DNA of 64,000 bases from Candidatus Aenigmatarchaeota archaeon (GCA_016187385.1 JACPJU010000001.1:268010-332009); one strand, 5' to 3'. Counted from the first letter of the stretch, positions 1 through 36,237 are shown. Notes: generated from the sequence alone by a model not told the origin. Made by a program: numbers and translations.

Positions 1-518
1 CCATCTCTAGAGAATTTCAATCTATATTTCCGTTCAGATTTTTCTATAGCTATTCTGAGCAATTCTGTTCTGTCTGAAGTTTCATTACTCCCGCAACTCC
101 TCATGTCTTCGGGAAAATAATTGTTTAATCCAACCTTCTTCAATAATGCGTCCAAGGTCCTAAACGAATCACCAGTATAGACACCAAAAGGCACTTTGTT
201 CTCTCTCAAATACTCTATCAGATCCGAGACTCCAGATAATGTCACAACTTTTCCTTCGTTCAAGCATCTCTCGAAAATATTTTCATATGTTGGGAGTATG
301 CGATTATTGCTTATTTCTATATCTTCCTTGGAGATGCCCTTCTTTCCAGCTATTTGAGAAACTACTGACTGTATAGTTGTTGATGTTGGATCTGCATCAG
401 TTCTTCCTCCATCGACATCATAAAGAGCTTTAACTGTTTCTATGTAAGCATTATCCGCTATATTTTCTGCTTCAATTAGAGTTCTGTACAAATCGAAAAT
501 TACAAGTCTGTCTTTCAT
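1..518 (-). CDS. HAD-superfamily hydrolase (partial, runs off window start)
   Basis: Reverse-strand reading MKDRLVIFDLYRTLIEAEN... with HAD motif I (DxxxT) and ...GVYTGDSFRTLDALLKKVGL...; frame open to the window edge; not in the ORF track. Confidence 0.7.
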   Translation of the reverse strand, partial: MKDRLVIFDLYRTLIEAENIADNAYIETVKALYDVDGGRTDADPTSTTIQSVVSQIAGKKGISKEDIEISNNRILPTYENIFERCLNEGKVVTLSGVSDLIEYLRENKVPFGVYTGDSFRTLDALLKKVGLNNYFPEDMRSCGSNETSDRTELLRIAIEKSERKYRLKFSRD

Positions 519-521
519 ATA

Positions 522-1742
522 TCAATCACCGACTATGTGAGGTTCTGGGTTAGGTACAATAATCTTTCCGTTATACCCCTTCTGCCTGAGTTTAGGTATG
601 ATGTCGTCTTTTATGTTCCATGGTAGTAATAATGCGTATTCGGGTTGTTCGTCTACCAACCTAGACTCTTCCACTATTTTGATATGCATACCTGGTGAGT
701 ACTTTCCAATTTTCAATTCATTAGTTTCGACCAAATAGTCAAGTATACTGGAATCTATTTTGCAGAAGTTTAGAAGTGTAGTTCCTTTTGCCGGCGCTCC
801 AATTCCGACAATTCTGTGACCTTTAGACTTGATATCATTCAACATGCGTTTGAGATGTTCTCTATTGCTATTTACACGGTTTCTGAAATTGTCAAAATTC
901 TCGCGCGAATTTAGATTGGATTGTTTCTCCTGATTGAGAAGAGACTTGACAGAATCCGAAATAGGATATGTTCCTTTATTGCATGCTAGGATACGGATAG
1001 ATCCACCATGGGTTGGAATGCGTTCCGCATGAAAGACATCCATATTAAATCTGTTGAAAAGATTGACGAGAGCCGTAACAGAATAGTATCTCAGATGCTC
1101 GTGATAAATTGCATCGTATTGAAGTTTTTCTATCATGTCGACTATGTAGTGTGATTCTGTCAAGAAAACTCCAGAATCTTCAAGGAGCAATTTGACACCA
1201 TCTATTATCGAGGTTAATTCTTTTGCATGCGGAATAAGGCTCAATCCTGTTATCAACTTTGCTTTTCCGTATTTGCTTGAAATTGTCTCGGCCAAACTTT
1301 CATTGAAAAAGTCTTTGATTGTGGGTATACCATTCTTTATTGCTATGTCGGCCACACTTGCCGGATCGACCCCGAGAATTCTTACGTTCTGTTTTGCAAA
1401 CTCTTGTAATAATGCGCCGTCGTTAGACGCTATATCAATAACCAAATCTTTTTCTGTCAGATTAAAATCTTTTACAAAACGTTCTGCTAATGATTTCATA
1501 TGCGCCAAAAGAGGTTTGTTGGAAGCCGATGTATATATGTAATTGTCAGTGAACAAAACTTTCGGGTCTACAGCATAATTCAACTGGACTAGTTTACAGT
1601 CTTCGCAAAAGAATACATTAAGGGGATAGAATGTTTCACTTTTACCAAGTTGTTCTTCCGATAGGAAAGCATCGCTTGGTGGTTGATGGCTCAAATCAAT
1701 GACATTGTACAATTTTTCGCTAGAGCATATTTCGCATTTCAT
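522..1742 (-). CDS. SAM-dependent NDP-sugar C-methyltransferase-like protein
   Basis: N-terminal CxxC..CxxC zinc site (CEICSS...CEDCKLVQL), Rossmann VIDIASNDGALLQEF, EHLRYYS motif, C-terminal GIGAPAKGTTLLNF typical of the TylCIII/NovU type. Confidence 0.85.
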   Translation of the reverse strand: MKCEICSSEKLYNVIDLSHQPPSDAFLSEEQLGKSETFYPLNVFFCEDCKLVQLNYAVDPKVLFTDNYIYTSASNKPLLAHMKSLAERFVKDFNLTEKDLVIDIASNDGALLQEFAKQNVRILGVDPASVADIAIKNGIPTIKDFFNESLAETISSKYGKAKLITGLSLIPHAKELTSIIDGVKLLLEDSGVFLTESHYIVDMIEKLQYDAIYHEHLRYYSVTALVNLFNRFNMDVFHAERIPTHGGSIRILACNKGTYPISDSVKSLLNQEKQSNLNSRENFDNFRNRVNSNREHLKRMLNDIKSKGHRIVGIGAPAKGTTLLNFCKIDSSILDYLVETNELKIGKYSPGMHIKIVEESRLVDEQPEYALLLPWNIKDDIIPKLRQKGYNGKIIVPNPEPHIVGD

Positions 1743-1788
1743 AGTATAAGTTACAAATGATAAATTTTTAAATTCGAGAATCTCGACA

Positions 1789-2721
1789 TCAGCTGTTATT
1801 TTTCTTGAACCAGTCTATCGTTTGATCAAGACCTTCTTCGAAGTTTACTTTCGGCTCCCATCTTAGTATTTTTTTGGCTAGTGAATTGTCACCACACAAC
1901 CTAGTAGACCCCGGCACCTGCTTGTTCAATACAGACAATGTCGAATCAAACCTGTCTGCTATTTGCTTGGCTATGTCAATTACTTTTATCTCACGCCCCA
2001 ATCCTATATTGATGGGACCGCCGATAAAATCGGTTTCAGCTGCCTTTATAATGGCATCAACAGTATCGTGTATGAATACGAAATCCCGTGTAGGTTTGTC
2101 TGTCCATATCTCGACTTTCTTGTCATTCATCGCTTGGGTTATGACTTTCGGTATGAAAAATTCAGAGTCCTGTCTCGGACCGAATGTATTGAACAACCTG
2201 AGAAAAACAATCGGCATGTTGTACTCTCTTATGAATGTGGTACACATATCCTCCCCCAGTTTTTTGGAAACCCTGTAAATGTCACCTGTCTTGTATATGT
2301 CGACAACTTGTGTTGGGTGCTTTTCGTCAATAGGTAAATATTTAGGCTCGCCATAAATCAGGGCAGTGGAAGTGAAGACAAGTTTTTTAAGATTTTCTAT
2401 CTTCAGTGCAGACTTGAGTACATTGTAGGTCCCCAATACATTAACTTTGAATGCAGTATCGTATTTCTCATTACTAATGGACGGAGATGTATAAGCCGCC
2501 AAATGGAATATGTACTCTAAACTGTCTGGAAGTGCAAAGTTATACTCGGTTATATCCTGCTTGATAAAAGTCACTTGGCCGTCTAGGTGTTGGATATTTT
2601 TGCCGAACTTTATATCAAGTACACTGACATTAGCGCCGAGCTCAACCAATTTCTCAGCGATGTGCGACCCTATGAAACCTGACCCGCCTGTTATTAATAC
2701 TTTCTTGTTTTTCCAGTCCAT
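1789..2721 (-). CDS. NAD-dependent epimerase/dehydratase (extended SDR)
   Basis: ITGGSGFIGSHIAEKL and YRVSKKLGED (YxxxK). Confidence 0.88.
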   Translation of the reverse strand: MDWKNKKVLITGGSGFIGSHIAEKLVELGANVSVLDIKFGKNIQHLDGQVTFIKQDITEYNFALPDSLEYIFHLAAYTSPSISNEKYDTAFKVNVLGTYNVLKSALKIENLKKLVFTSTALIYGEPKYLPIDEKHPTQVVDIYKTGDIYRVSKKLGEDMCTTFIREYNMPIVFLRLFNTFGPRQDSEFFIPKVITQAMNDKKVEIWTDKPTRDFVFIHDTVDAIIKAAETDFIGGPINIGLGREIKVIDIAKQIADRFDSTLSVLNKQVPGSTRLCGDNSLAKKILRWEPKVNFEEGLDQTIDWFKKNNS

Positions 2722-2743
2722 ATTTAACTCTCGCTCTTTCGGT

Positions 2744-3835
2744 TTAAACTTTTATTATAGAATGTTCTCCTACAACAAGTTGGATTGCCGTTGAAGGAGT
2801 CCCTAAAAATTCAGAGATATTTACATTTCCTCCAATTAGACTATCGACAATCCTTTGTCGACAATTTATTTTTGAATTTCCTATAACTATGCTAGACTCG
2901 ATTTCAGCATTCTCGATTATTGTATTGTCCCCTATCGATGTGTAGGGACCCAGACATGCATTATCCCCAATCACGCAATTCTTGCCTATAACAACAGGCC
3001 CTTTTACAGAAGCTCCTTTCTTGATTATTGTTCCTGTGTCGATATTCACCTTGCCCACAATAGTTGCACCATCTTCAACCAAACCTTTGTTGGATGGTTT
3101 TAATTCGTCCAACAAAAGTCTGTTAGCTTCTAAAATACCTACTGGGTCTCCAGGGTCTTTCCACCATTCTGCATCGACAATCTCATGATGGACATTTTTG
3201 CCGCTGTCTATAATACCCTGCACCGCTTCTGTAATCTCGTATTCGTTTCTTGAGGATGGTTTCAATCTTTCTATGGAATCGAAGATGTGTCTATTCAACA
3301 TATAAATGCCGACCATGGCCAAATCGCTCGGAGGAATTTTAGGTTTCTCGACTAGCCTTATTAATTTTCCGTCCTTTATTTCAGCAACGCCGAATCTACT
3401 CGGATTCTGTATGTTCTTCAGCAAAATTAGACCGTCTATATCAGAATCCATGAATTTTTCGACATATTTCTTTATACCGCCTTTCAAAATGTTGTCACCA
3501 AGATGAACTACAAATTTTCCATCTTTATTATTGGTTGTAAGAAAATCCTTTGCAACCTTGACTGCATGAGCCAAACCTCTTGGAGCGTCTTGTTCTATAT
3601 AAGTAACTTTTATACCTAGTTTTGACCCGTCTCCAACAGCGTCTTTTATTTCTTGTATCCTTTGGGGGGTATGGCCAACTATTATTCCTACGTCGGTAAT
3701 ACCAGCATCTTTTAACGTTTCTATTGAATAGAACAGCATAGGTTTGTTGGCTAGGGGGATTAGATGTTTATTGCTCGTGTGAGTTATTGGCCTTAAGCGT
3801 GTCCCATGACCACCTGCCAAAATCAGACCTTTCAT
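2744..3835 (-). CDS. Glucose-1-phosphate thymidylyltransferase-like nucleotidyltransferase, long form with LbH C-terminus
   Basis: MKGLILAGGHGTRLRPITHTSNKHLIPLANKPM; C-terminal hexapeptide-type repeats (GPVVIGKNCVIGDNACLGPYTSIG). Confidence 0.87.
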   Translation of the reverse strand: MKGLILAGGHGTRLRPITHTSNKHLIPLANKPMLFYSIETLKDAGITDVGIIVGHTPQRIQEIKDAVGDGSKLGIKVTYIEQDAPRGLAHAVKVAKDFLTTNNKDGKFVVHLGDNILKGGIKKYVEKFMDSDIDGLILLKNIQNPSRFGVAEIKDGKLIRLVEKPKIPPSDLAMVGIYMLNRHIFDSIERLKPSSRNEYEITEAVQGIIDSGKNVHHEIVDAEWWKDPGDPVGILEANRLLLDELKPSNKGLVEDGATIVGKVNIDTGTIIKKGASVKGPVVIGKNCVIGDNACLGPYTSIGDNTIIENAEIESSIVIGNSKINCRQRIVDSLIGGNVNISEFLGTPSTAIQLVVGEHSIIKV

Positions 3836-3903
3836 GACATCATCTATTTAAGTTTTACACTTAACATATAAGCGTTAATTTATTAAAGCTAATTGTTGAT
3901 TCG

Positions 3904-5034
3904 ATGATCCCGTTGTTTAAACCTTGGGTTGGTAAAGAAGAGATAGAAGCAGTAGCCGAAGTTATCAATTCTGGCTGGCTAGGAGTAGGTCCTAAGACTC
4001 AAGAATTCGAAGAAAAATTTGCTGAATATGTGGGAGCAGATTATGCAATAGCTGTCAATTCTGGGACTGCCGCTTTAGATATTGCCATCAAAGCACTTGG
4101 AATAAAATCTGGTGAAATACTAGTACCCTCACTGACATTCGCTGCTACGGCTAATGTCGCATTATATAACAACGCCAAGCCTGTTTTTGTGGATATTGAC
4201 GAAGATACTAACTGTATGAGCATAGAAGATGCAAAAAGGAAATTCACTGAAGATACAAAAGCTATCATACCCGTCCACTATGGCGGTCACCCGTGCGACA
4301 TGGATGAATTTATCGAATTTGCCCAACGAAAAGAGATTCCGATAATAGAAGACGCGGCACATGCCGCCGGGGCTGAATACAATGGGAAAAAGATCGGTTC
4401 TGTATCTGATATCACCTGTTTCAGCTTTCATCCTGTAAAAAACATGGCAACTGGAGACGGTGGCATGGTAACTACAAACGACGAAAAGGTTTATCAGGCT
4501 GTTAAAAAGTTGAGATGGTTCTGCATCAACAAATCGACTTTCGAAAGAGCTGAAAACAAAAAATACTCATGGTATTACGAAATAGACGGGTTAGGATACA
4601 AATATCATATGAATGACATAACAGCTGCTATCGGACTTGTACAATTAAAGAAATTGGATAAAGCGAATGAATTGAGAAGAAACATTTCTAGCCGCTATAT
4701 GAAAGCATTTTCAGACTTGGGATGGGTGAAATTACCTGTAGAAAAACCAAATGTCAAGAGCTCATGGCATATGTTTGTCCCGAAGGTAAAAAATAGAGAC
4801 GGGTTAATAGAACACTTGGGTAACAATGGTATATCTGCAGGTGTTCATTATTTACCTGTTCATATGCACCCTTATTTTGAGGGTTTAATAAAAGAAGGTC
4901 GTATAAATAGACCAGACACACCTGTAACAGATACTGTATGGAAAAATATAATAACACTGCCTCTATTTCCTGGGCTGGCTGATGCTGAATTGGAGAAAAT
5001 CGTAGCATCTGTAAGGGAATTCAAACCAGAATGA
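3904..5034 (+). CDS. DegT/DnrJ/EryC1 sugar aminotransferase
   Basis: VNSGTAALDIAIKALGI, IEDAAHAAGAEYNGKKIG, SFHPVKNMATGDGGM (PLP Lys). Confidence 0.92.
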   Translation: MIPLFKPWVGKEEIEAVAEVINSGWLGVGPKTQEFEEKFAEYVGADYAIAVNSGTAALDIAIKALGIKSGEILVPSLTFAATANVALYNNAKPVFVDIDEDTNCMSIEDAKRKFTEDTKAIIPVHYGGHPCDMDEFIEFAQRKEIPIIEDAAHAAGAEYNGKKIGSVSDITCFSFHPVKNMATGDGGMVTTNDEKVYQAVKKLRWFCINKSTFERAENKKYSWYYEIDGLGYKYHMNDITAAIGLVQLKKLDKANELRRNISSRYMKAFSDLGWVKLPVEKPNVKSSWHMFVPKVKNRDGLIEHLGNNGISAGVHYLPVHMHPYFEGLIKEGRINRPDTPVTDTVWKNIITLPLFPGLADAELEKIVASVREFKPE

Positions 5035-29065: not shown

Positions 29066-31765
29066 TTACTTTACGCTCAGAACCAAATTCTTGAATTTTT
29101 CGCCAGAATGCGAGAACAATATTTCACCTTGACAGTCAGAACATTTGCCTATCATGGGTATTCTCCTGTAGAACTTGTTGCATGAATTGCATATAAAACC
29201 GTCGAAACTGGTTATTTCGGATTTTACACCATCAGAAGCGTGATTATTATTTTTGAACAAATCCTTCAATAGCGTTTGCTTACCCATTCCCATTAGCTCA
29301 TTCTTGCTGATTCCAATAACCTCGAAAACTCTTTCCAATGGTGGGAGGATTTGGTTTTCTATGTAGTATTTGGAATCTATCGGGATGTTGTTCTGTTTGA
29401 CGTAATCGGGATCCTCTGATCTTTCTGAGAGTAGCTGCATTCCCTTAACTATTACAAAACCGACTCGATCACCGACGCCAGGTGCGGTACCATTTCTTTT
29501 CTTTATCTTCTTGACCAGCTCAACATGCGGCTGGATTCCTTTATATGATGACAATGATTTTGATATGCTTTTTGTTATTACGAGCTCGTCTATGGGGACT
29601 TCATTCTTCTCCAATTTTAAGAGAATTTCCTTAGCGTATGCGAATGCCTTTTTGGTGTTCTGTTCCTTTAGAAGGATGTTCAAAACTTCAAACAAAGTTT
29701 TTGTGGCAGCATCGCACCAGTCCCTTCTCACAGTTTCGATACCTTTCATCACCATTTTTTCTTTCCATTCGTCGTCTACTTTTTCATAGCTCAGACCTGC
29801 ATATCTTTTCTTTGAAAGGATCAGTATTGTTTTAAAGACGCTTTCGATTTTCATCTGGACGATTCCGGAAAGTTCTGTGTTGACAAGAGCTTCGACGTTC
29901 TTGCCTATTTTCGACGCATCATCGAGATCCGTATTGTTGATCTTGACCATTATGGAATCTGTGTCGCCGTAAACAACTTCGTACGGCGTGTTTTTTTCAA
30001 CGACTTCTTTCGTCCTGTTTATGAGATACCTGCCACATCCTGTAATTGTTGCTGCTATTTCGATTATGTAAAGTCGTGCGCGTAGGTATCCTGTATAACC
30101 GTAAAATGCGTTCGTCATTATCTTCAGTGCAAGCTGTTTTGCTTCCAGAATTCTTTTCGCCTCCTGGTTTCGTGTTTTCCTAGATTCCGATCTCACATTG
30201 TCTCTTTCATCTATCAACTTTTTGAGAATTGTTGGTAGGATGCCTTCTTTGACTTTGCTTGAAACGAATTTTGTTCCGTGTGGAGTAGTTATTGTTTCCA
30301 CGTCGACATCTTCCTTCACAAAAGTTGTTGGACATATGTTGTACGCTATGAAAATTGAAGGGTACATGGACTTGAAGTCCAGATATATAACGGGATCTGT
30401 ATGCAGCCCAGTCTTTGGATCCAAGACAAGCGCTCCCTTCAGTTCCTGGGATTCGTCCGTGCTAGAGTATTTGTCATCACTCGGTTTGTCCGGTAGAACG
30501 TATCCTTGCTTGTTGAATTCCTTGAGAAGTAAAATCTCAACTCTCTGTGCCTCGCCGCCGTCAAGACAATCCTGGAGAAGGATTCCCGATACCTTACTGA
30601 GCTCGAAGAATTTGTCCAAAAGATTGTTTTGCAGGACCAATCTCAATGATAGATCAGCATCCTTTCTCGCGTATTCTACAAGTTTCGATAATTGCTGGCC
30701 GTCGCCGTTCCAATGAGAATATATTTCACTGTGTGGTATGTCAAGTTTTTCGTCGTTCAAAAGTGCGCGTGAAACGTCGCCCAGTCCGAGTCGTTTCAGT
30801 CTTAGGTTACCTTTCTGAATCGATTCTTTTATGAGAGCGTAACCGTCAACTATTACCCTTGATATCATGGAATTCCTGAACTGAACCCCGAATTTCCTGG
30901 AGATTGCGGGTTTTTGGTTGCACCGTCCGAGTGTCTGCATCAGTCTGTTCTCCTTCAGTCTATCCAACAAATAAGGAAAATCAAAACCGTTTATGTTATA
31001 TCCGATCATTATATCTGGGTCGTACGTTTCAAGCACTTTCAGAAATTCGGCCAGCATTTCTTTTTCGTTCTGGAATGTTTTTGTGTCGCTGTTCATTTTC
31101 TGCGTGGCTCTCTTTGAGACGAGTGTCATGAATTTCATTCCATTGAACTCAGGCTCGAAAGCTAGACTGATTATTCCTATTATGTCCTTTCTCGCATCTG
31201 GCAGTCCTTCTCGTGAGATTGTTTCGATGTCTACCGAAAGGTATCTCAGTTTTATATTTTCTGTCCTGTCAAAATCTTTGATTTCGTCAACTTCTAGGCA
31301 TACATCGGTTTTCACTGTGTTTGTCTTGGACGCTGAGCCTATGAGCTTGATCCATTTGAATCCTGATAGACCCATGTCACACATAAACCGGTATTTGAAT
31401 AGTATGTCAGCCTCGTAAATTCCGTCTGCAAGCTTTTCTTTCTTTATCCTTTCCCGGACTTCTGGGACTTTGGAAGGGTCTGTCAGAACAACCTTCAACA
31501 TCTCCGCTTTCTTTGACTGATAATTTATCGGTTTGTATTTTTCCACTGGGATTATGTTTTTTATGATGCTTGAGAAGTTCTTTCTGATAAATTCTATAAC
31601 TTCATCCTCGTTGGTTTTCTTGGGCAGGACATAGAAGTACGGATAATAGCCGCGATAAAAGCCGCAGACTGTCTTTCCTTCTTTGGTTTTCCCGAAAAGA
31701 CGTACTATTGGTGTATTATCCAACACGACATAGTCGCAATCAAGAAGCTGAGCCTCGATTTCCAT
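29066..31765 (-). CDS. B-family DNA polymerase, catalytically intact, with C-terminal CxxC...CxxC zinc finger
   Basis: Exo I SVDIETIS, Exo II YNINGFDFPYL, Exo III YARKDADLSL; motif A YLDFKSMYPSIFIAYNICP, motif B KIMTNAFYGYTG, motif C VYGDTDSIMV; C-term ICNSCNKFYRRIPMIGKCSDCQGEILF. Confidence 0.97.
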   Translation of the reverse strand: MEIEAQLLDCDYVVLDNTPIVRLFGKTKEGKTVCGFYRGYYPYFYVLPKKTNEDEVIEFIRKNFSSIIKNIIPVEKYKPINYQSKKAEMLKVVLTDPSKVPEVRERIKKEKLADGIYEADILFKYRFMCDMGLSGFKWIKLIGSASKTNTVKTDVCLEVDEIKDFDRTENIKLRYLSVDIETISREGLPDARKDIIGIISLAFEPEFNGMKFMTLVSKRATQKMNSDTKTFQNEKEMLAEFLKVLETYDPDIMIGYNINGFDFPYLLDRLKENRLMQTLGRCNQKPAISRKFGVQFRNSMISRVIVDGYALIKESIQKGNLRLKRLGLGDVSRALLNDEKLDIPHSEIYSHWNGDGQQLSKLVEYARKDADLSLRLVLQNNLLDKFFELSKVSGILLQDCLDGGEAQRVEILLLKEFNKQGYVLPDKPSDDKYSSTDESQELKGALVLDPKTGLHTDPVIYLDFKSMYPSIFIAYNICPTTFVKEDVDVETITTPHGTKFVSSKVKEGILPTILKKLIDERDNVRSESRKTRNQEAKRILEAKQLALKIMTNAFYGYTGYLRARLYIIEIAATITGCGRYLINRTKEVVEKNTPYEVVYGDTDSIMVKINNTDLDDASKIGKNVEALVNTELSGIVQMKIESVFKTILILSKKRYAGLSYEKVDDEWKEKMVMKGIETVRRDWCDAATKTLFEVLNILLKEQNTKKAFAYAKEILLKLEKNEVPIDELVITKSISKSLSSYKGIQPHVELVKKIKKRNGTAPGVGDRVGFVIVKGMQLLSERSEDPDYVKQNNIPIDSKYYIENQILPPLERVFEVIGISKNELMGMGKQTLLKDLFKNNNHASDGVKSEITSFDGFICNSCNKFYRRIPMIGKCSDCQGEILFSHSGEKFKNLVLSVK

Positions 31766-31772
31766 AAACCTT

Positions 31773-32906
31773 TTATGAGAAATCTATTTTAAATGTTTCG
31801 CGTGTCCCCAAGTTTATCATCCGGTATACGGGCTCTGATGTGAAGTTTCCGCTGAAGATTATGGTTGTTCCTTTGTAATTCGTCGCTGAAGGTTTTCCGA
31901 TATTTCCAAATGCCAGTATATCAGGTAGTGTTTTCAAGAAGAACGAGTCCTCGTTTAGTATATCTGTTGGATTAAGATGTCGTTTTTTAAGCAGATTAAT
32001 GACGGCCTCGTCATGTTGCATTGACCATCGATTTATGTATGGTGTAAGGAAGTTTCCCTCAGACGCGAATATTTTTATGCCTTCTGTTTCGTATACTAAT
32101 GGGTCGCGATGTCCTTTTGTCCCCTCTGGAAGATTATCGTGACCGATGAATATAATCGAATGTTTTGAAACATCTTTTATGAATTTTTCTATGTCGCTTG
32201 GTTCTTGCGAAACGTTGCCGAGCACAAAAATCGTCATGGGTATCTGTTCGTTCACCCAGTTAAGAAATTTCTGATAAAATTCTAGATTGAATTTCTCCGA
32301 GTCCATATGAATATCCGATATAAAGAAACATAGGTGGTCGTTTTTCGTTTTAGCCACGTCTTTTTTTACTGGCGTATCGGGAAAGATTAATTTCACCGCT
32401 TTATGGGTGTTCCCTGTTTTTTCACAAACAACACCAATCACCTCGTCTTCAGTCAACGTCCTGGATAAGCCATTATCAATCGATAGACGTGCTGTCCCTG
32501 TAGTATCTTCTATTGTTAATGTGTCGTAATCGACTGATGTAACAATTCCTATCAGGGAAAATTTCTGCATTCTGGCCGACATCTTGTTGACAGATACCAA
32601 ATTTGACAGGTCCGGTTTGTTTATGAGAATTTGCTTTATTGCATCGTAGCGTTTTATATAATACTGGAGATAATCTTTTGATGACAGTTTAAGTTCTTTT
32701 TCAGATAGAGGCATCGCTCTTTCTTGTAGCTTTGCGATAAAATCTGCTGTTATAAAATGCGGCAGATCTTTTCGATCAAGTGATTTGAGGCGTTCAAACA
32801 ACTCATCGTTGTTGTAGATAATATCGAGCACTGTTTTATCCACATGTGCGCCTCTTTCCATGAAAAACTTTACGATTTTGGATTTGTCCATAAGATTTGT
32901 ATACAT
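31773..32906 (-). CDS. PolD small subunit (DP1)/B-subunit homologue with degraded phosphoesterase active site
   Basis: OB-fold region FSLIGIVTSVDYDTLTIEDTTGTARLSI; FISDIHMDSEKFNLEFYQKFLNWVNEQ; INLLKKRHLNPTD characteristic of DP1; catalytic motifs altered (see findings). Confidence 0.88.
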   Translation of the reverse strand: MYTNLMDKSKIVKFFMERGAHVDKTVLDIIYNNDELFERLKSLDRKDLPHFITADFIAKLQERAMPLSEKELKLSSKDYLQYYIKRYDAIKQILINKPDLSNLVSVNKMSARMQKFSLIGIVTSVDYDTLTIEDTTGTARLSIDNGLSRTLTEDEVIGVVCEKTGNTHKAVKLIFPDTPVKKDVAKTKNDHLCFFISDIHMDSEKFNLEFYQKFLNWVNEQIPMTIFVLGNVSQEPSDIEKFIKDVSKHSIIFIGHDNLPEGTKGHRDPLVYETEGIKIFASEGNFLTPYINRWSMQHDEAVINLLKKRHLNPTDILNEDSFFLKTLPDILAFGNIGKPSATNYKGTTIIFSGNFTSEPVYRMINLGTRETFKIDFS

Positions 32907-33176
32907 TTATTTTTTTAAAGTATATACCGTTAGTCCGCTTTTCTGGTCGTCCTTCGAGTGTGGGAGTTCGATCGGTTGCACCCTACCAACCTGTACGAGC
33001 TCTTGTACGTATTTATCCACCGTGTTCCAACTTAGTCTCTTGTTAAGGACCTGAGATAATTCCTTGGTCAGAACCGACGTCGTCTTGGGGGTGTCCCCGT
33101 CGGAGAGGATTCTAATGACCTCTTTATGAATATCGTGTCTCATGGGTGGACGGCCGCGCTTCATCTTATCTACCAT
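32907..33176 (-). CDS. Small winged-helix DNA-binding protein
   Basis: HKEVIRILSDGDTPKTTSVLTKELSQVLNKRLSWNTVDKYVQELVQVGRVQPI; directly abuts the DP1-like gene. Confidence 0.65.
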   Translation of the reverse strand: MVDKMKRGRPPMRHDIHKEVIRILSDGDTPKTTSVLTKELSQVLNKRLSWNTVDKYVQELVQVGRVQPIELPHSKDDQKSGLTVYTLKK

Positions 33177-33538
33177 ACTTATGTGGGCGTTATTTATAAA
33201 CTTTCATCCGTTTTTTGGGATATTTCTATGTTTGTTTGGGTTAGGTGATATAAAAATAAATCGGTAAACATAATAAAAAACAATTATTATATTATTATAT
33301 TATAACTATGTTATATAATAATATAGTTTATCTGTTTTTAGTTTTTAGATAGTCGTGAGTGATCTCTACTGCCTAATTGGATTTTGTTTTGCAAGAATTA
33401 ACTAAATTTGTTAATAGTCCACACTAATTTATTTGAACAGTCATAGAATTCTATACAATACATCATAAAATAGAGTCAGACGTTTCACATTTTTTATTAT
33501 GAATCTTCATAAATATTCTAATAACGGCACACGCAATC

Positions 33539-33931
33539 CTATAGAAACTTTATTAGGCCATTTATCACAAAAAACTTTGATATAATACCTTTAACAAACG
33601 GCACCTTATCTCTCATAGGACCGTAATTAGTTGGGTTTGAATGTGTTATCTTCTCCAACAATCCCAAAACAACTAAATTATTCAACCGCTTCCTCAAAGC
33701 CTCCATTCCAATCTTCAGTTTGTGTGAAGTTTTCATCTCCTTATATAAGATAGGAAAACAGTGCGGTTGACAGTCAAACGGATGTTCCTTTCCCGTCATG
33801 TAAAACTTCCTTAGAAGCTGAATATCAAGAAAATCCAACCTCTCAGCCAAAGAGATAATATCCTCGATGCTACGTGCGCTGATGCCTGTTGCCAGTTCAT
33901 TTTGCGAGAAAATCAGATCAACATCGGTCAT
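33539..33931 (-). CDS. Putative winged-helix protein
   Basis: KIGMEALRKRLNNLVVLGLLEKI resembles a wHTH recognition segment. Confidence 0.5.
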   Translation of the reverse strand: MTDVDLIFSQNELATGISARSIEDIISLAERLDFLDIQLLRKFYMTGKEHPFDCQPHCFPILYKEMKTSHKLKIGMEALRKRLNNLVVLGLLEKITHSNPTNYGPMRDKVPFVKGIISKFFVINGLIKFL

Positions 33932-34004
33932 GAATCAACCTCATCGAAGTTTGTAAGAATGTAATGATGAAGGCCCTTTAAAGCTGATTTGTATCCTTCA
34001 GTAA

Positions 34005-34691
34005 CTATATCAGACTAGTTAATTTTGCTGTCACTTCTGAATCGTCAATTGAGATTATGCCTAGATGGCCTTCTGGAAATCGGCCGGAGTTTACAATTTT
34101 CGTGTTACCAAGCTCATCTACACACCTGCTTTCATGTATGTGAGCACATACAGCTGATTCGGGCTGCTCTTTTTCAATAAATTTACGCACGGAATCAGAA
34201 CCAACGTGTGCACCGCTAGCTATTACATCCGCCTTCGTGTTAAAAGGAGGCGCATGCGTAACTTGAATCTTCACATCTGCTTTTCTGACATCTCTATACG
34301 CCTTTTCCAATCCTGATGCCATCTCACTCTCGGACGGTTCGAACGGTGTGTTGAATGGTGTCTTCGCCCCGCCGTAGCCATAAAAACCAACGCCGTCTAT
34401 AATCTTACCTTCACCATGGCAACTAATGGTCTCCTTTTTCAACAGGGTTATCAATTCCTTGTCCCAGCTGCCTGGAACAGTAACCAGCGGCTTATCCAAA
34501 CTTTTCAGCTCTTCCAGAATTATCCTTCCGATGTCAATCCTGTTAAATCCCCTTGGAATCGCGTAATCGGTAAAGTCGCCGTTGCAGACTATAATGTCTA
34601 TGTTCAGCAATGAAATTTTGTCCATGAATTTCATCATGTTTTCTATGTCGCCATGTATGCAGCTTACAGTCGCTATCTTCACGATTATCAA
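34005..34691 (-). CDS. Calcineurin-like metallophosphoesterase
   Basis: VSCIHGDIENM, VCNGDFTDYA, VPGSWD, VTHAPPF, CAHIHESR. Confidence 0.85.
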   Translation of the reverse strand: MIIVKIATVSCIHGDIENMMKFMDKISLLNIDIIVCNGDFTDYAIPRGFNRIDIGRIILEELKSLDKPLVTVPGSWDKELITLLKKETISCHGEGKIIDGVGFYGYGGAKTPFNTPFEPSESEMASGLEKAYRDVRKADVKIQVTHAPPFNTKADVIASGAHVGSDSVRKFIEKEQPESAVCAHIHESRCVDELGNTKIVNSGRFPEGHLGIISIDDSEVTAKLTSLI

Positions 34692-34719
34692 TTTTATCTT
34701 GTACGTAAAATATTAAATA

Positions 34720-35049
34720 GTGTCATCAAAGCAAAAAGGATATCGAACAGAGAGAAAAATTAAGCTTCTGTTTCAAAAACACGGGTGGACTGTTGTGAGA
34801 GCCGGTGCCAGCCTCGGCATCGCAGATCTCATATGCATCAAAAACAAAAGGTGCATTCTACTGCAAATCAAGTCAACGAATAAAAAAACATTTTACTATT
34901 ACGGATATACAATGCCAGATTACGAAGGATTTGGTTTTTACCTTGTTGTTGATTTTGGCTATGGAAAGATAAGGGTGTTGTATCCGAAACAGAAAGTAAC
35001 TATCCATGACGGTAATGATATAGAGGATTTCTTACAGAAACACCAATAA
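34720..35049 (+). CDS. hjc: Hjc-type Holliday junction resolvase
   Basis: SKQKGYRTERKIKLLFQKHGWTVVRAGASLGIADLICIKNKRCILLQIKST; GTG start. Confidence 0.8.
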   Translation: MSSKQKGYRTERKIKLLFQKHGWTVVRAGASLGIADLICIKNKRCILLQIKSTNKKTFYYYGYTMPDYEGFGFYLVVDFGYGKIRVLYPKQKVTIHDGNDIEDFLQKHQ

Positions 35050-35053
35050 AGAA

Positions 35054-35854
35054 GTGAGTGAGATTGCCATGAAATTGGATTGGTTGGGCATCGATAAAGA
35101 AATGAAAGTAACGGCTATTTCTATTCCTTCTCCTGTTTATGGAGACGAGTCGGACAGCGTGAAGACAATTGTCAAAAGAATGGTGGACTCTGGTCACAGA
35201 CTGTTGCCGATAATTAAAGGCAATTCAGAATTGGTAGGCGTAGTGACATATACAGATATTTTAAGCGCTTTGTTGAGGGGAATGACGAGAAACACTCAAG
35301 TATCAATATTCATGACTCGAGATGTCATTGCATGTGATCATGACGACACTATAAAAGATGCCTTGCAAAAAATGGTATTCTCGAGGCGTGGGACACTTCC
35401 AATAAGGTCAGGAAAAATCCTCAGAGGGATTGTGAGCGAGCGTGATTTCACCAAGATTATTTTCGGCAAGCATTTATCGATACCTGTGTCAGAAGTGATG
35501 ACAAGAAAGCCATTTTACATAACGCCAGGCACAACAATTCTAAACTGTATGAAGTCAATAATAAATACGCACTACAGAAGACTGCCGGTGGTTGAAAATA
35601 AAGAAATTGTGGGAATTGTAACTGCCCTGGATGTTTTGAATTATTTGGACGAAACAGGTTTCAATACTCTGAAGCTGGATGACGCTACAAGTTCAATTAT
35701 GAAAGCTCCCGTTTTTTCAGTTTCTCAGCATGATGATCTATCCGATGCTATAAAGATAATGATAGGGAATCACATAGGAGGACTGCCTGTTATAGAAGAA
35801 GGTCTTTTGGCAGGCATTATAACAGAGAGGGATGTAGTTGAGCTGATGGAATGA
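35054..35854 (+). CDS. CBS-domain protein (four CBS motifs)
   Basis: Repeated LPI/VV/IxG-x-LxGIVTxxDxxx pattern. Confidence 0.9.
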   Translation: MSEIAMKLDWLGIDKEMKVTAISIPSPVYGDESDSVKTIVKRMVDSGHRLLPIIKGNSELVGVVTYTDILSALLRGMTRNTQVSIFMTRDVIACDHDDTIKDALQKMVFSRRGTLPIRSGKILRGIVSERDFTKIIFGKHLSIPVSEVMTRKPFYITPGTTILNCMKSIINTHYRRLPVVENKEIVGIVTALDVLNYLDETGFNTLKLDDATSSIMKAPVFSVSQHDDLSDAIKIMIGNHIGGLPVIEEGLLAGIITERDVVELME

Positions 35855-36237
35855 TTATGAGGACAATTGAGCAAATCAAATTTTTAGAAAAAATGAAAGA
35901 GACAGATAAAAAAGTGATAGTGGAAGGAATGAATGATAAGAACGCTTTGAAGAAATTGGGCGTGAATAATTTGTTGGACATATCAGGAAAAGCTACATAT
36001 TCCGTAATAGAGAAACTGATGACTGACAATACATCAGAGGTCATTATTCTCACAGATTTTGACCGAGAGGGCGTGAAGAAATTCAAGGAATTGGCCAAGC
36101 TATTGAATCATAACGGCATAAAAACCGATGACAACATGCGAAAAAGATTCAGACAAATTTTCAGGATAATCAAGATTGAGGAGTTGAATTATTTCATTAA
36201 GAATCAGATGCCGCTAGGAAACTTTCATGTAATTTAG
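35851..36237 (+). CDS. Small Toprim-domain protein
   Basis: KVIVEGMNDKNALKKLG...VIILTDFDREGVKKFKEL (Toprim E and DxD-like). Confidence 0.75.
   Translation: MIMRTIEQIKFLEKMKETDKKVIVEGMNDKNALKKLGVNNLLDISGKATYSVIEKLMTDNTSEVIILTDFDREGVKKFKELAKLLNHNGIKTDDNMRKRFRQIFRIIKIEELNYFIKNQMPLGNFHVI

Follow-up and report, generated by a model that had tools for sequence, protein, structure and literature searches.

The window, meaning the whole 64,000-nt stretch analysed here, contains a minus-strand operon that very likely encodes the main, and probably the only, replicative DNA polymerase of its host. The enzyme would be a two-subunit holoenzyme made of a B6 family-B polymerase (PolB) and a former DP1 retained as a structural B-subunit (DP1L). 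The PolB belongs to the published group B6-aenigma1: it falls in the Delta-like clade, has one DP2-like zinc motif and comes from an aenigmarchaeotal host without DP2. New here are a phylum-wide either/or pattern of DP2 and B6 PolB, a decay series of DP1 marked by loss of H451, the conservation of the operon, and the restricted range of a small winged helix-turn-helix (wHTH) gene. The features of the locus are as follows.

29066-31765, minus strand: PolB catalytic subunit of the B6-aenigma1 type, exonuclease and polymerase domains intact (899 aa)
29132-29191, minus strand: PolB C-terminal zinc module, C859-x2-C862-x12-C875-x2-C878 plus RRxP loop, homologous to DP2 Zn-III
29255-29278, minus strand: PolB PIP-box-like motif QTLLKDLF, between polymerase core and zinc tail; predicted to bind PCNA
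31773-32906, minus strand: DP1-like B-subunit (DP1L) with N-terminal domain (NTD), OB fold and decayed phosphoesterase (377 aa; start probably 32891)
31896-31904, minus strand: DP1L motif V, GNIG where active DP1 has GHxH (H560 and H562 lost)
32307-32315, minus strand: DP1L motif I, DIH (equivalents of D360 and H362), the sole metal-ligand motif retained
32907-33176, minus strand: small wHTH protein with AT-hook-like N-terminus, MKRGRP (89 aa; start probably 33164)
33191-33200, minus strand: TATA-box-like TTTATAAATA, about 27 nt upstream of the likely wHTH start

Locus, host genome and distribution across the phylum

The three genes are tightly packed, as the original prediction had described from the sequence of the window; its ORF coordinates hold, and the gap between DP1L and PolB measures the 7 nt that it gave. 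As called, no nucleotide separates the wHTH and DP1L ORFs. Relatives point to internal starts at 33164 for wHTH (MKRGRP) and at 32891 for DP1L (an invariant methionine, M6). These are probably the true starts and would leave 15 nt between the two genes. The element TTTATAAATA is the probable promoter of a joint wHTH-DP1L-PolB transcript, and its position ahead of the likely wHTH start makes a single leaderless-type transcript plausible.

Upstream of wHTH lies a very AT-rich intergenic stretch of 362 nt (33177-33538) with an imperfect 26-nt inverted repeat; the corresponding interval is longer (~1 kb) in genomes G023, G026 and G029. A block beside the operon (33539-36237), with gene order conserved across the family, encodes a second small HTH-like protein (33539-33931), a calcineurin-like phosphoesterase (34005-34691) and divergent Hjc resolvase, CBS and Toprim genes. 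Location at a replication origin was considered and rejected: Orc1/Cdc6 is ~137 kb distant, no clear GC-skew switch marks the locus, and the inverted repeats of the AT-rich stretch, examined for origin placement, consist of AT only.

The host, a member of the Aenigmatarchaeota, has one PolB in a genome of 876 kb (91% complete). DP2 had been noted as absent from the window, and across this genome the DP2 N-terminal domain (PF03833) gave no match, while the sole match of the full DP2 model (NF003103) was the 34-residue PolB tail. A DP2 encoded elsewhere, named beforehand as the possible true partner of DP1L, was thus not found in the genome. Three genus-mates yielded a PolB, each with one full B6 PolB; genus-mate G021 also has a weak match to a further PolB-like frame, divergent and 837 aa long (C4:76863-77000). 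In many other relatives there is an additional PolB of ~820 aa that lacks the zinc tail and groups with KOD, that is, B3 (100/100). Unlike these relatives, the genus of the host gave no B3 PolB match.

Across 156 Aenigmatarchaeota genomes, DP2 was found in only 10, all of family f32, and was not found in the other 146, among them 38 of the 39 genomes of good quality. Strong B6 PolB matches showed the complementary distribution, with none in f32 and presence in nearly all other families. DP1-family proteins were found in 134/156 genomes. Gene-pair conservation had been proposed as a check on the original prediction, and no comparable genome of the order departs from adjacency: wherever both genes were found, they share a strand, DP1L comes immediately upstream of PolB, and the gap is 3-82 nt in 27 of 28 fully delimited pairs and 612 nt in the remaining one. 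Conservation on the scale of an order means that this arrangement is not a product of chance. Families outside the order show either the same adjacent gene order or the two genes nearby on opposite strands; the latter arrangement (families f9, f11, f28, f30 and f31) means that the pair is not always an operon.

The polymerase, its zinc tail and the decayed DP1

Sequence and structure comparisons bore out the earlier description of a catalytically intact PolB beside an inactive DP1-like protein, and of a DP2-like tail on the PolB. The window PolB has the Pfam domains PF03104 and PF00136; none of its six exonuclease residues is missing, its polymerase carboxylates are in place, and the exonuclease and polymerase carboxylates are kept in 53/53 B6 PolBs sampled across the phylum. 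Its best PDB match is Pol delta, both by sequence and by model. A maximum-likelihood tree of 33 sequences, in which yeast and human Pol delta were the sole Pol delta references and Pol alpha was not included, put B6 and Pol delta on one side of a split (100/98) and B3, E. coli Pol II and halovirus B5 on the other; B6 itself was monophyletic (96/88). This phylogeny, also proposed at the outset, places B6 beside Pol delta, in agreement with Kazlauskas et al. 2020 (PMC7544198). With few references and some long branches, the tree supports membership of B6 and no specific eukaryote scenario. B6 PolB frames of ~1250-1400 aa were seen in class-mates G072 (L262, G072:C32, ORF 39-4205), G040, G044, G058, G060, G063 and G075; in G072 the polymerase domain is split by an intein-splicing and LAGLIDADG domain, and the other long frames show the same broken match.

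The C-terminal cysteines C859, C862, C875 and C878 are invariant in an alignment of 11 sequences, and 53/53 PolBs sampled across the phylum have a CxxC..CxC/CxxC module. Searched against all solved structures, the tail profile found DP2 first (E 1.2e-9), aligned on its third zinc module (Zn-III). DP2 models in turn match the PolB tail, and in family f32 the motif recurs close to the C-terminus of the DP2 proteins. In Pyrococcus abyssi, Zn-III and its RR loop are seated in the OB/PDE groove of DP1, and a 20-residue Zn-III peptide has nanomolar affinity for DP1 (PMC6355029). The window tail retains this docking loop as YRRIP. The RRxP docking arginines, searched in regular-expression form, occur in only 31/53 tails, so the interface has drifted, if one exists. 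A PIP-like pattern precedes the tail in 47/53 B6 PolBs, including the window protein.

DP1L matches five DP1 models (best the PRK04036 type, E 3.8e-33); its match to Pfam DNA_pol_E_B is weak because the phosphoesterase half of the protein has decayed. The AlphaFold2 model (mean pLDDT 86.8) has the NTD, OB fold and phosphoesterase fold of the DP1/B-subunit family, and its best match is P. abyssi DP1 (E 3e-22), followed by the B-subunits of Pol delta, zeta, epsilon and alpha. The active site of P. abyssi DP1 comprises D360, H362, D404, N450, H451 (catalytic), H497, H560 and H562, and H451A is an exo-dead mutant of PolD (PMC10721889). An active DP1 of PolD combines these eight residues with a DP2 partner; DP1L keeps two (D360 and H362), has lost D404, N450, H451, H497, H560 and H562, and has no DP2.

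The state of the active site follows the distribution of DP2. All eight residues are present in 7/7 DP1s checked from the DP2-bearing family f32, whereas H451 is kept in 0/64 DP1s from the other families (a raw count of 67 included three genomes entered twice). Among these, 7/8 residues remain in G079 and G080, 6/8 in several genomes of families f15-f18 and in G017 and G027, and 0-1/8 in most others. G080 (L118) and G079 (L119), genomes with a B6 PolB, hold the least decayed partner found: all metal ligands are kept and the catalytic GNHD has become GNMD. At the opposite extreme, the DP1-like protein of G005 (L091:6683-7240) has just 185 aa and has lost its phosphoesterase half, yet adjoins PolB; an in-frame TAG was reported at this locus. 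DP1L evolves much faster than PolB (33-42% vs. 65-70% identity between genus-mates). The OB and C-terminal signature residues of DP1L are invariant among relatives.

Proposed holoenzyme and alternative readings

We infer that PolB and DP1L form a physical complex that is tethered to PCNA and replicates the chromosome. The Delta-like PolB would polymerise DNA and proofread with its own DnaQ-type exonuclease; its Zn-III-like tail would plug into the OB/phosphoesterase groove of DP1L, as in PolD and in eukaryotic Pol alpha, delta and epsilon; and the PIP-like motif may supply the link to PCNA. Such a replicase would have replaced PolD, shifting proofreading to PolB. Under this proposal, the DP1 nuclease site became dispensable because DP2 was gone and PolB supplied its own exonuclease. 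Decay may then have run from the catalytic histidine to the metal ligands and on to parts of the domain, with the scaffold retained.

That DP1L diverges fast, decays in steps and has shrunk to 185 aa in G005 could also indicate that it is a relic being lost, and that PolB acts alone with a tail that binds DNA or nothing. We regard this as decidedly unlikely given that the ORF is kept beside PolB order-wide, that most genomes of the phylum encode a DP1-family protein, that the OB and C-terminal signature is invariant, that every sampled PolB has the zinc tail, and that the DP1L model is confident. It is also conceivable that DP1L retains some nuclease or phosphatase activity, weak or altered, that still aids editing, as the full set of metal ligands in G079 and G080 (minus H451) and the 6/8 residues in G027 and G017 might suggest. 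With 2/8 residues in the window protein, loss in all 64 DP1s of the histidine that is essential in PolD, and a full exonuclease site in PolB, residual activity appears highly improbable. Finally, the pair could be a repair or mobile-element enzyme, with the chromosome copied by something missed in a draft genome that is 91% complete; a mobile-element origin of B6 is suggested in the text of Kazlauskas et al. (PMC7544198). This is very unlikely when DP2 is missing from 146 genomes, good-quality ones included, when the host's own genus lacks a B3 match, and when the chromosomal surroundings of the locus are conserved. IMG/VR and phage records contain no close B6 and yielded only distant PolBs (~29% identity or less), and a viral or mobile source of the PolB was rejected. 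The two-subunit replicase of PolB and DP1L is the reading that we prefer.

The wHTH gene appears to stand apart from this holoenzyme. It gave no significant family match in Pfam, other domain models or solved structures, and its identification as an RPA or MCM winged helix was rejected for the same lack of a match. Linkage to the pair was seen only in families f1, f5 and f6 of the order, where wHTH lies directly upstream of DP1L in 18/18 genomes that have it on the same contig as the pair; the gene is absent from f2 and nearly all other pair-bearing families, and a few weak matches elsewhere are unlinked to the pair. Genome G027 has a second, diverged copy directly ahead of the main one (L078:901-1128). 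Being lineage-specific, wHTH is an add-on and no core subunit, and its inclusion in the core unit by the original prediction does not stand. Most likely it is an autoregulator of the operon, as its AT-hook-like MKRGRP and its place as first gene of the unit suggest. Its constant position in those 18 genomes, together with the binding of the RPA winged-helix domain to PolD in P. abyssi (PMC11686378), could instead point to a third polymerase subunit in f1, f5 and f6. We consider this unlikely, in view of its absence from nearly all other pair-bearing families, a KRGRP motif that points to DNA binding, and a sequence unlike any solved RPA winged helix. Equally doubtful is the broader combination of a third winged-helix subunit, acquired by the polymerase in this lineage alone, with a graded natural series, still present in the phylum, of the PolD-to-PolB subunit swap that gave rise to the eukaryotic replicases (8/8 residues alongside DP2, falling from 7/8 to 0/8 alongside PolB).

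Comparison with known polymerase systems

The original prediction had called the system undescribed, and in this it was mistaken. Kazlauskas et al. 2020 NAR (PMC7544198) define PolB group B6 and its subgroup aenigma1 with one DP2-like zinc motif (published accession OIN85950), describe an inactive DP1 and a missing DP2 in most Aenigmarchaeota, and propose that the eukaryotic polymerases came after such a step. Since the B6-aenigma1 pairing is already in that work, our finding is a member of a described kind: the same phylum, a Delta-like PolB with a DP2-like C-terminal zinc motif, an inactive DP1 and no DP2. The main text of that paper does not mention an operon, adjacency, a helix-turn-helix gene or stepwise residue losses, and contains no biochemistry. 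No experimental study of the PolB-DP1L pair was found in the literature searched, with most subscription journals outside its scope.

Archaeal PolD (DP1-DP2) shares with the window pair the DP1 fold, the Zn-III docking module and the retention of the gene as a replicase subunit. It differs in that DP2 rather than PolB is catalytic and the DP1 nuclease is alive; only Zn-III is common to DP2 and the window PolB. Crenarchaeal PolB1 with PBP1 and PBP2 is likewise an archaeal PolB holoenzyme with accessory subunits, and PBP1 and PBP2 are not known to be descendants of DP1. The Heimdallarchaeal B10 PolB with its DP1-like subunit resembles the present case in its C-terminal metal motif and in occurring in archaea without an active DP2; B10 belongs to an EpsilonN-like clade, and in clustering its C-terminal domain (CTD) stays apart from DP2 (Kazlauskas et al. 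2020, PMC7544198).

Eukaryotic Pol delta, alpha and epsilon combine a B-family core, a C-terminal zinc module and an inactive DP1-derived B-subunit, and the window has both a PolB with a CTD zinc module and the gene for an inactive B-subunit; the PolB model is nearest to Pol delta. The eukaryote-like holoenzyme of the original prediction has good support from sequence, fold, synteny and phylum-wide complementarity with PolD, though not as an undescribed system or with wHTH in its core. The CTD of the window PolB has one metal site (no CysA) where the eukaryote-type holoenzyme has two (CysA and CysB); no further subunits are known, and there is one polymerase rather than several. The eukaryotic replicative polymerases join a B-family core to the docking module and the dead nuclease of PolD. 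Aenigmatarchaeota contain both ends of such a swap: PolD is intact in one family, and the other families pair PolB with a DP1 at every stage of inactivation, so that the proposed sequence of events is directly testable with small recombinant proteins.
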